This document shows, one piece after another, positions 8,006 through 14,859 of a stretch of DNA of 37,086 nucleotides (positions are counted from its first letter, which is position 1; each line of letters begins with the position of its first letter). The notes under the pieces are model-generated. The model ran no database searches. It saw only the letters and a program-made list of their open reading frames with translations, and was not told where the DNA came from. A program made the translations under genes and the position numbers. The stretch is from a virus: positions 1 through 37,086 of the IMG/VR virus record IMGVR_UViG_3300047551_001442; one strand, given 5' to 3'.

Positions 8006-8091
8006 AAACATTTGCAGACCTCGGAGTAAGATGTTTTGTTTACTGATTAAACATTTCTTTCCATCTTATTGCGTCAGAGGATGAATTGGCA

Positions 8092-8107
8092 GCCTGGAAA
8101 GACAGGC
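8092..8107 (+). ncRNA. Hairpin H1 before tRNA-like element 1
   Basis: GCCTG pairs with CAGGC around loop GAAAGA. The tRNA-like element starts 6 bases further on. Compared with H2 (GCTTG/CAAGC) one base pair is changed on both sides, so the stem is conserved by compensatory change. Confidence 0.55.
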
Positions 8108-8113
8108 AAATTT

Positions 8114-8207
8114 AGCAAGGTGGCGGAATTGGTAGACGCTATACGTAGAACACAACCGATAATTAACAGGGCGTGTGTTCATGCAGGTTCGAATCCTGTC
8201 CTTGCTA
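8114..8207 (+). tRNA. tRNA-Leu-like element 1, non-canonical anticodon region
   Basis: Acceptor stem AGCAAGG (8114-8120) pairs fully with CCTTGCT (8200-8206), discriminator A. The D arm 8123-8139 contains AATTGGTAGA, typical of leucine tRNAs. The T arm GCAGG-TTCGAAT-CCTGT (8183-8199) is standard. Between D and T arms lie 43 bases that do not form a 5-bp stem with a 7-base loop. Two exclusive pairings exist: ATACG (8141-8145) with CGTGT (8172-8176), leaving a 26-base loop, or GAACACA (8148-8154) with TGTGTTC (8174-8180), 7 perfect pairs and a 19-base loop. No anticodon can be assigned. CCA is not encoded. Confidence 0.6.
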
Positions 8208-8276
8208 CAATCATATTGTGATTAATTGCCTTACCCTGACAGGAACGAAAACCTAGAGGCTTGAAAGTGGGTGACA

Positions 8277-8292
8277 GCTTGGAAAGACAAGC
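8277..8292 (+). ncRNA. Hairpin H2 before tRNA-like element 2
   Basis: GCTTG pairs with CAAGC around loop GAAAGA, 5 bases before the second tRNA-like element. It has the same loop and place as H1, with a C-G pair replaced by T-A. Confidence 0.55.
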
Positions 8293-8297
8293 AAAAT

Positions 8298-8391
8298 AGC
8301 AAGGTGGCGGAATTGGTAGACGCTATACGTAGAACACAACCGATAATTAACAGGGCGTGTGTTCATGCAGGTTCGAATCCTGCCCTTGTTT
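8298..8391 (+). tRNA. tRNA-Leu-like element 2, non-canonical anticodon region
   Basis: Nearly identical to element 1: across 93 bases only two changes are seen, in the T stem (CCTGC here, full pairing) and in the acceptor 3' strand (CCTTGTT here, one G-U). Both keep the stems. The unusual 43-base region between the D and T arms is unchanged, so it is either very recent or under constraint. Base 8391 would be the discriminator (T). CCA is not encoded. Confidence 0.6.
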
Positions 8392-8440
8392 ACGAAGCAA
8401 CATAGCGATTAGTTTTATAGGAATACAATGGTTGTTGACA

Positions 8441-8456
8441 TTCTGGAAAGACAGAG
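8441..8456 (+). ncRNA. Hairpin H3, third copy of the GAAAGA-loop hairpin
   Basis: TTCTG pairs with CAGAG (one T-G) around the same GAAAGA loop. No tRNA-like element follows; instead the small gene at 8480 begins 23 bases later. Confidence 0.45.
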
Positions 8457-8479
8457 CCTTACCACCCGAAGGTTGAGCA

Positions 8480-8632
8480 ATGCGGCATCTTGAAGCCATC
8501 CGACTTGGCGAGGACATTGACCAGGAGAGCGGATTATTACACGCTGCACACCTGCAATGCAATGCAGCAATGTTGACTGAATATTATTTTACTAAAAAAG
8601 AATTTGATAACCGTAAAAAATACGACAAATGA
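8480..8632 (+). CDS. Shortened dATP/dGTP diphosphohydrolase-like protein (DUF5664-type C-terminal half), 50 aa
   Basis: The protein reads MRHLEAIRLGEDID then ESGLLHAAHLQCNAAMLTEYY. The motif R-H-L-x-A-x-x-x-G-E-D-x-D-x-E-S-G-L-x-H-x-A-H is characteristic of the phage nucleotide diphosphohydrolase-like family DUF5664, in which Glu and His/Asp residues bind metal. Family members usually have a further N-terminal half with a K-Y-x-x-x-N-W segment; that half is missing, and the frame meets a stop two codons before this ATG. It overlaps the dCTP deaminase start (ATGA). It may be a remnant broken by the tRNA-like block or a minimal functional form; I favour a remnant. Confidence 0.55.
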   Translation: MRHLEAIRLGEDIDQESGLLHAAHLQCNAAMLTEYYFTKKEFDNRKKYDK

Positions 8633-9168
8633 TTTTAACCGACCACACTATTATTGACGAGATGAACGAAGGTAATATTAAGATTGAACCTTACAACCCT
8701 GCTAACCTTGGCACAAACAGTTATGACTTAACGCTTTCAAATACATTGGTATTATACACCGATAGGGTATTAGATGTAAAAAAGAAAAATCCATCCGCTC
8801 CAATGATTATCCCTGCTGAAGGAATTATTCTTCAGCCTAATATGCTATATCTTGCATCTACAATTGAATATACTGAAACATTGCGTCATGTGCCATTAAT
8901 ACAAGGAAAAAGTAGCCTTGGAAGATTAGGACTATTTGTCCATGTTACGGCTGGATTTGGCGATGTAGGCTTTAAAGGGCATTGGACATTGGAATTGGTT
9001 TGTGTACAACCAATTCGCATTTATGCAGGAATGAAAATTGCCCAGTTAGTGTACAATGACATCAGCGAGATGCCAAAGATAAGCTATGATAAGAAAGTTG
9101 ATGCAAAATACGCTAACCAAGGGATTGATCCGCAACCATCACGTTATCACAAAAATAAATTTATATGA
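8629..9168 (+). CDS. dcd: dCTP deaminase (Dcd/dUTPase superfamily), 179 aa
   Basis: Converts dCTP to dUTP (or directly to dUMP if bifunctional) and feeds phage thymidylate supply. The family core is clear: GTNSYDLTL (about 28-36), the nucleotide-binding QGKSSLGRLGLFVHV (92-106) and the catalytic Glu in HWTLELV (about residue 122), followed by GMKIAQLVY (about 134-142), as in Dcd proteins. The length is normal. The start overlaps the diphosphohydrolase-like gene, so the two form a nucleotide-pool pair. Mono- or bifunctionality cannot be decided by eye. Confidence 0.9.
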   Translation: MILTDHTIIDEMNEGNIKIEPYNPANLGTNSYDLTLSNTLVLYTDRVLDVKKKNPSAPMIIPAEGIILQPNMLYLASTIEYTETLRHVPLIQGKSSLGRLGLFVHVTAGFGDVGFKGHWTLELVCVQPIRIYAGMKIAQLVYNDISEMPKISYDKKVDAKYANQGIDPQPSRYHKNKFI

Positions 9169-13470: not shown

Positions 13471-14859
13471 TTATTTGTTTTCAATAATTAATAATCTTTG
13501 TTCAAGTGACTTTATTTTTTCATTTGCCTCTTGCAATGCTTTGACAATAATAGGTAAAAGTACACCGTATGATGCTTCAAGTTTTTCATCTACACCACTT
13601 ACAAGGTTAGGAATATTTATACCTGTGTCTATTTGCGCTTGTTGCAAATCTTGTGCAATAAAGCCTATTTCAGGAATGCCTATTTTACCTCCATCCCTCA
13701 TATCCCAAACAAACGAAACAGGTTTTAATTTGTTTATGAAATTCATACCGTAATTTAATGGCGACACTTCTGTTTTATCCCTAATATCCGATAGTGAAGT
13801 TATTGTAGTTACTTGAGCGCGAATAGTAGCTATTGAGCTATTTCCAAGTGTTATAACATTTGATTCCGTAGCACTTGATCCAACTGCTTCATTACCAATA
13901 AAAGTGTTATTTGAACCAGTTGTATTTGCATTTGTCCCTGTTCCATACCCTGCACTTCTACCTATTGCAGAGTTATAATTTCCTGTTGTATTTGAGTACA
14001 GTGCATCTAATCCTGTTGCAATGTTGTAATACCCTGTTGTATTTGAGTACAGTGCACTAAAACTTATTGCAGCATTAAAAAATCCTGTTGTATTTGAGTA
14101 CAGTGCATTCATACCTATTGCAGCATTATTATATCCTGTTGTATTTGAGTACAGTGCATTCATACCTATTGCAGAGTTCCTATACCCTGTTGTATTTGAG
14201 TACAGTGCATCATAACTTATTGCAGAGTTACTATACCCTGTTGTATTTGAGAATAGTGCATTTACACCTATTGCAGAGTTACTATACCCTGTTGTATTTC
14301 TGTAAAGTGCATTCATACCTATTGCAGAGTTGTAATATCCTGTTGTATTTGAGAATAGTGCATTTACACCTATTGCAGAGTTGTAAGAGCCTAAATAAGA
14401 TGCTCCCCCGTTAGTTGTTGAATTATTTCCACCGCCACCGATAAAAATATTAACTCCATCACTACCTGATGGATAAAATGTTGAAATAGTTCTTGACTGA
14501 CCAGATGTATTAATAGCAATATTTGATGTAAATGTTTTAGCACCATTTACCGTTTGCGTGCCATAGGTGTTAACGTAATTAAATGAAGTTGTATCGGCTA
14601 ATCTAAGATTAACCCGTGTCCAAGCGTTATTTGTTGCCTTTTTATATTGCCAAATAATATTTGTATTTGTATCAAGTAAAATATACGCCATAGTATCAAC
14701 AGAAGGTTTTCGAGTGGTATCAGAAGCCAAACCGCGATAGACCAGCCCGTCGGCTGTCGTTTGTTCGCCCAGCGTTATCTTTTGGTTGCCATTGCTCGGA
14801 TACTGTGCCCAGGCAAGGCAAGGCAACAAGGCAAGGGCAAGGGAAAGGAGTTGTTTCAT
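13471..14859 (-). CDS. Tail fibre-like protein with signal peptide, 17-residue repeats and S74 chaperone domain, 462 aa
   Basis: The N-terminus MKQLLSLALALLPCLAWAQ is a clear signal peptide with Gln at the junction. Then comes a module (QTTADGLVYRG, residues about 32-42) shared with the 1276-aa neighbour. Residues about 155-290 are eight 17-residue repeats of type ALYSNTTGYxNSAIGxN, beta-helix-forming repeats seen in fibres and adhesins. The C-terminus (about 355-462) is a peptidase_S74 intramolecular chaperone: SLSDIRDKTEV holds the self-cleavage Ser/Asp, followed by KLKPVSFVWD, IGFIAQDL and a coiled-coil end. Such domains trimerise fibres and then cut themselves off. Export signals on a fibre are unusual. 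Confidence 0.85.
   Translation of the reverse strand: MKQLLSLALALLPCLAWAQYPSNGNQKITLGEQTTADGLVYRGLASDTTRKPSVDTMAYILLDTNTNIIWQYKKATNNAWTRVNLRLADTTSFNYVNTYGTQTVNGAKTFTSNIAINTSGQSRTISTFYPSGSDGVNIFIGGGGNNSTTNGGASYLGSYNSAIGVNALFSNTTGYYNSAIGMNALYRNTTGYSNSAIGVNALFSNTTGYSNSAISYDALYSNTTGYRNSAIGMNALYSNTTGYNNAAIGMNALYSNTTGFFNAAISFSALYSNTTGYYNIATGLDALYSNTTGNYNSAIGRSAGYGTGTNANTTGSNNTFIGNEAVGSSATESNVITLGNSSIATIRAQVTTITSLSDIRDKTEVSPLNYGMNFINKLKPVSFVWDMRDGGKIGIPEIGFIAQDLQQAQIDTGINIPNLVSGVDEKLEASYGVLLPIIVKALQEANEKIKSLEQRLLIIENK
13984..14391 (-). repeat. Eight tandem 51-bp repeats in the fibre gene
   Basis: The + strand motif TGTTGTATTT starts at 13984 and every 51 bases to 14341. Repeats encode the 17-residue unit of the fibre. 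Differences are mostly in the variable middle of the unit. Confidence 0.9.

Follow-up and report, generated by a model that had tools for sequence, protein, structure and literature searches.

tRNA-like shells without an anticodon arm lie between phage genes and may act as RNA-processing units

The window analyzed here, the whole 37,086-nucleotide IMG/VR phage record IMGVR_UViG_3300047551_001442, carries two tRNA-like elements, which we call shells, each preceded by a small leader hairpin and both lying upstream of a dCTP deaminase gene (Table 1). The two hairpin-plus-shell units form a tandem duplication with a period of 184 to 185 nt, and in both copies five to six nt separate the hairpin from the shell. 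The two shells carry the parts expected of a tRNA (a 7-bp acceptor, D arm, T arm and A15/U48), and pairing at 8114-8206 and 8298-8390 confirms the first-pass annotation, made from the sequence alone, in its statement that neither copy lacks any part of the acceptor, the Leu-type D arm or the T arm. In shell 2, acceptor strand AGCAAGG pairs with CCTTGTT and the T arm reads GCAGG-TTCGAAT-CCTGC, while D arm TGGCGGAATTGGTAGACGC does not differ between the copies. The two base differences between them preserve pairs, as had been noted: a T-stem G.U becomes G-C, and an acceptor G-C becomes G.U. The 3' end of shell 2 (CCTTGTT, then TAC) matches that of two relatives, L355 and L356.

Table 1. Features of the shell locus in the analyzed window
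Feature	Position	Strand	Description
Window (phage record)			37 kb, IMG/VR; terminase, portal, capsid and tape-measure genes present
Leader hairpin 1	8087-8107	+	TGGCA-GCCTG-GAAAGA-CAGGC; 5-bp stem, GAAAGA loop; fold z -3.1
tRNA shell 1	8114-8206	+	No anticodon arm; discriminator A73 at 8207
Shell 1 acceptor, 5' strand	8114-8120	+	AGCAAGG; 7/7 pairs with 8200-8206
Shell 1 D arm	8121-8139	+	Leu-type, TGGCGGAATTGGTAGACGC; carries A15
Shell 1 core	8140-8182	+	43 nt in place of anticodon and variable arms; last base U48
Shell 1 core stem	8148-8154 / 8174-8180	+	GAACACA / TGTGTTC
Shell 1 T arm	8183-8199	+	GCAGG-TTCGAAT-CCTGT
Shell 1 acceptor, 3' strand	8200-8206	+	CCTTGCT
Leader hairpin 2	8272-8292	+	TGACA-GCTTG-GAAAGA-CAAGC; stem covaries with hairpin 1
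tRNA shell 2	8298-8390	+	Core same as shell 1; 3' end CCTTGTT, next TAC
Leader hairpin 3	8436-8457	+	TGACATTCTGGAAAGACAGAGC; no shell 3' of it; 22 nt 5' of the 50-aa ORF ATG
50-aa ORF	8480-8632	+	C-terminal half of dATP/dGTP diphosphohydrolase N-terminal domain
dCTP deaminase gene	8629-9168	+	Anchor used for finding 80 relatives

The 43-nt core is the odd part of these elements and, as the annotation had it, is the same letter for letter in both copies (8324-8366 in shell 2) and makes no anticodon arm: a 5-bp anticodon stem with a 7-nt loop and U33 is absent from both shells, and ARAGORN made zero tRNA calls on the whole window. Both foldings that had been put forward for it are available: ATACG/CGTGT can close a loop of 26 nt, or GAACACA/TGTGTTC one of 19 nt. 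The minimum-energy fold contains the latter, 7-bp stem, which ends two nt 5' of the T arm, at the site of a class II variable arm. In the covariance-model scan that the annotation had proposed, Rfam RF00005 scored shell 1 at 39.7 bits and shell 2 at 36.6 bits (gathering score 29), accepting both with an anticodon-region stretch of 30 nt left out of the alignment. Neither ARAGORN nor Rfam found a tmRNA in the window, and the shells have a full Leu-type D arm. An exact 50-nt core search of viral contigs gave 0 matches, as did a core-stem pattern; one phage core (L038) shares the GAACACA/TGTGTTC stem with the window and has a different inner loop. Over 84 nt, the inter-shell spacer (8207-8271) shares 89% identity with sequence 3' of another phage's shell (L068), and the cores of the two differ.

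Two further observations concern the window itself. Positions 8458-8632 hold TTACCACCCGAAGGTTGAGCAATG joined to the 3' half of a gene for a dATP/dGTP diphosphohydrolase domain; TTACCACCCGAAGGTTGAGCAATG also occurs in L310, L311 and L345, the domain gene stands separate in relatives, and the 50-aa ORF is probably a deletion fusion. A putative tail protein (ORF 13471-14859, minus strand) contains, at ~14.0-14.4 kb, tandem repeats of ~51 bp in its coding sequence that resemble SAIGVNALFSNTTGY.

The leader hairpin, which the annotation had not mentioned, follows the 21-nt consensus TGRCA-GNNNG-GAAAGA-CNNNC, and its conservation ends abruptly on both sides. Scanning viral contigs with the pattern TGACAGNNNGGAAAGACNNNC gave 123 distinct matches, and all three free pairs were formed in 116 of them, against ~6.5 expected by chance. 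A tRNA-like shell lay 3' of 29 of 132 unbiased hairpins, compared to 0 of 213 shuffled downstream sequences; hairpins without a shell stand before terminators, start codons or structured RNAs of other kinds, and a few of the elements that follow a hairpin are normal tRNAs (Leu, Gly, Gln, Tyr), as in Microcystis phage Mvi-JY20, where the hairpin lies 5' of tRNA-Leu. In a scan of genome contigs, most matches were ordinary tRNA-Leu genes in which GGAAAGAC occurred by chance and formed no stem; paired hairpins were few, with one per genome in the two genomes checked. This element of 22 nt appears to be undescribed and is common to phages of several bacterial phyla.

Several hairpin sites have a setting of their own. 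In the lambdoid phages mEp390 and vB_EcoS-733R5, the hairpin lies directly 3' of the CI repressor gene, near the start of the leftward operon (L305 1515-1535 and ~1722; L307 ~1519), where it adjoins another conserved-looking structured leader and is possibly an antitermination element. HK022 put is likewise a small structured RNA, but it comprises ~70 nt and two stem-loops, whereas the leader hairpin is a single stem-loop of 21 nt. Comparison with the HK022 leftward leader and put gave no sequence similarity, and we rejected identity with put after viewing the one 14-nt match, which we judged to be chance. On a 322-kb phage contig (L136 8885-9119, minus strand), the hairpin starts each of a series of tandem ~78-nt repeats resembling those of RNA antitoxins. 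In six other contigs (L144, L162, L163, L221, L227, L244), it is followed by other RNAs, apparently closed by a long helix; Rfam at gathering score found no family except tRNA in the four scanned (L144, L163, L221, L227). In L190 (minus strand, hairpin at 411), a tRNA-like acceptor and T arm ending in ACCA surround a 198-nt insert, giving an element between a shell and tmRNA in size.

Scans of public phage contigs found the hairpin-plus-shell arrangement in dozens of phages, with 79 viral contigs matching a pattern of hairpin plus Leu-type D arm; such patterns favor Leu-type D arms and exact hairpins, and these counts are not natural frequencies. The hairpin is absent from some shells, and D arms of other types are found in shells as well. 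Some of our shell sets were chosen by pairing, and the unbiased tests are the pairing of the 116 hairpins and that of acceptors located by the T loop: when the T-loop motif alone located the shells, 24 of 33 distinct acceptors paired at 7/7 positions, compared to a mean of ~1.3 with permuted 3' ends. ARAGORN detects 21 of 93 hairpin-led shells. A canonical anticodon arm is present in only 3 of 51 distinct Leu-type hairpin-led cores and absent from the other 48, and the insert that stands in for the anticodon and variable arms is as short as 9-10 nt (L211, L224) and as long as ~200 nt. An extra hairpin sits inside the D loop of some shells (L392 2244, L393 6021, L252 1997), so the D loop also tolerates inserts.

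That the shells are intron-containing or decayed tRNA genes, the former having been offered in the annotation, would accord with the few hairpin-led normal tRNAs but is in our view highly improbable. The intron reading fails because the arms of several shells are just 9-22 nt apart, too little to house an anticodon arm, because canonical arms are rare, and because the cores show no enrichment of Leu anticodons (100 seen versus 100.2 expected); the last result also led us to reject a hidden anticodon. Decay is contradicted by acceptor pairing, stems, elbow and end signals that are all intact, and normal tRNA genes share contigs with several shells and adjoin them.

The elbow of the arm-less shells is conserved at the level of its tertiary contacts, which comprise 15-48, G18G19 and T54T55C56. 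A15 is matched with U48 in 93 of 96 Leu-type shells, and across arm-less shells the Levitt pair is A15-U48 in 141, A15-C48 in 3, G15-C48 in 13 and G15-U48 in 0 (Fisher p 1.7e-16), in a table that takes in a few near-canonical tRNAs. This covariation indicates that the elbow is under selection despite the loss of the anticodon arm, and the annotation's term "tRNA mimic" is valid as a description. The signals at the ends of the shells are also retained: among 142 arm-less shells, U occupies position -1 in 73% (flank T, 26%), A73 is present in 79% and C74 in 87% (flank C, 16%), rates close to those of canonical tRNAs on the same contigs. In the window, shell 1 has the full set of RNase P substrate signals (acceptor-T stack, U-1, R73 and C74), while shell 2 has a partial set, without C74.

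An elbow with A73 and no anticodon could also be a decoy, another of the annotation's readings, that is neither cut nor takes part in translation and that ties up synthetases, anticodon nucleases or defense toxins. Leu-type tRNAs can be charged without recognition of the anticodon, which would suit such a role. However, the 65 different acceptor sequences of the arm-less shells and the G15-type D arms imply no single amino-acid identity, the position of shells at gene boundaries is not predicted, and nothing speaks specifically for a decoy; we think this explanation quite unlikely.

The position of the shells among genes is most regular in arrays. One contig (L024) holds eight shells that share the acceptor AGTCAGG and each have a core of their own. 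They lie between small co-oriented genes, and a short A-rich leader separates each shell from the next ATG; L280 and L281 share this layout and its alternation of gene and shell, and the L052 record contains 12 T-arm ends of the AGTCAGG type. In Bacteroides phage BS-TP2, the stop codon, hairpin, shell and ATG follow in immediate succession. The ATG of a 40-codon ORF lies no more than 40 nt 3' of 30 of 71 long-core shells, compared to 20 of 119 elements of normal size (p 1.7e-4), a moderate effect obtained with simple ORF calls that include many spurious ORFs overlapping shells; an ORF-based strand test was noisy. The window shells lie farther from neighboring genes, with a 5' gap of ~80 nt. 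The dCTP deaminase gene led to relatives of the window in which the hairpin and the sequence upstream of it are kept and what comes next varies: some have an AGCAAGG shell whose core differs, some a shell whose D arm differs, and some lack a shell, its place being taken by what we take, from reading the translated start, to be a ThyX-like start.

This presence, absence or swapping of shells after the same hairpin, together with AGTCAGG shells that have near-identical ends, differing cores and up to 12 copies per contig, might be explained by mobile or recombining cassettes, whose conserved ends would serve recombination from one phage to another and spread along with small genes. Against this, the compensatory changes in acceptors, the covariation of 15-48 and the retention of C74 are constraints at the RNA level, for which DNA homology has no need, and we consider cassettes an improbable account of the shells.

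The cores themselves are mostly unrelated. All-against-all comparison of hairpin-led shell cores gave similarity mostly at chance level, and in a larger set 33 of 176 cores clustered, leaving 143 singletons. Between BS-TP2 and its relative L029, the flanks are 84.6% and 77% identical and the hairpin and arms are conserved with compensatory changes, while the cores are unrelated. Core type A, on the other hand, occurs in nine phages at 82% identity with compensatory pairs (GC/CG, AU/UA) on differing acceptors (AGTCAGG, AGCAAGG, GGCTGAG and a CGCAG type), and families F (L233/L274/L286) and G (L035/L060) each span different acceptors as well. Cores fold better than shuffled sequences (mean z -0.84, 120 cores). 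The better folding and the conservation of type A suggest that some cores are more than filler, and type A inserts are probably functional cargo.

These same results bear on a reading in which the core is a regulatory or structural RNA that differs by phage and the tRNA scaffold provides stability and defined ends. The many singletons in the sample, the shortness of some inserts (9-22 nt) and the lack of above-chance antisense matches between cores and their own flanks (mean z 0.32; the window core is at chance) count against it, and we regard it as doubtful, even with the type A, F and G families in its favor.

With the elbow and end signals kept, the decoding part lost and the position intergenic, the reading that fits best is that the arm-less shell is a tRNA-fold RNA-processing unit in phage operons, to which we give a probability of about 0.5 from sequence comparisons. 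Of the four readings offered by the annotation, which did not choose among them, a processing signal is the one best supported by U-1, A73, C74 and position; the cutting itself we infer. In this model, the transcribed shell would fold like a tRNA, host RNase P would cut at its 5' end (8113/8114 for shell 1), and tRNA 3' maturation would act downstream of position 73. The cuts would split adjacent mRNAs, giving the next gene a short A-rich leader, and would set free a stable non-decoding small RNA. The anticodon domain could vanish or be swapped because cutting would need only the elbow and acceptor. On the other side stand the moderate ATG-proximity effect, the longer gene gaps of the window and the missing C74 of shell 2; moreover, some shells lie close to tRNA clusters and might in that setting be tRNAs that have degenerated, and the folding z and type A conservation indicate that some cores are more than filler. 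A broader proposal, also drawn from sequence, is that of a phage-wide device in which an arm-less tRNA chassis punctuates operons through tRNA-type processing and releases stable small RNAs with exchangeable functional cargo in the former anticodon domain, the core families seen so far being candidates for such cargo; this we advance tentatively, as a possibility with the odds somewhat against it.

Known systems offer partial parallels. Canonical tRNA-Leu (RF00005) and the shells are alike in their acceptor, D arm, T arm, tertiary contacts, A73, C74 and U-1, but the shells lack the anticodon arm, carry an unrelated insert of variable length and are missed by ARAGORN. M3 RNA and C4 antisense RNA of P1/P7 are non-decoding, tRNA-like phage RNAs cleaved by host RNase P (PMC11143913), as is proposed for the shells. 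Whereas these are individual cases, the shells are a large family with full D and T arms, intergenic arrays and exchangeable inserts, and their cleavage is predicted only. Our literature search, on punctuation of phage transcripts by tRNAs and on tRNA-like phage RNAs that lack an anticodon, returned nothing relevant, which is weak evidence, as most subscription papers lie outside the search. In mitochondrial transcripts, tRNA-shaped units between genes set mRNA ends. Those units are decoding tRNAs, whereas the phage shells have no decoding capacity and separate genes encode the normal tRNAs.

If the processing-unit model is true, phages would have put the tRNA fold, minus its coding part, to new use as scaffold and signal for cutting, comparable to the mitochondrial tRNAs that separate messages, and many phage "pseudo-tRNA" stretches would be working RNAs that gene finders skip. 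The shells would also be a natural catalogue of the inserts that the tRNA fold tolerates instead of an anticodon arm.
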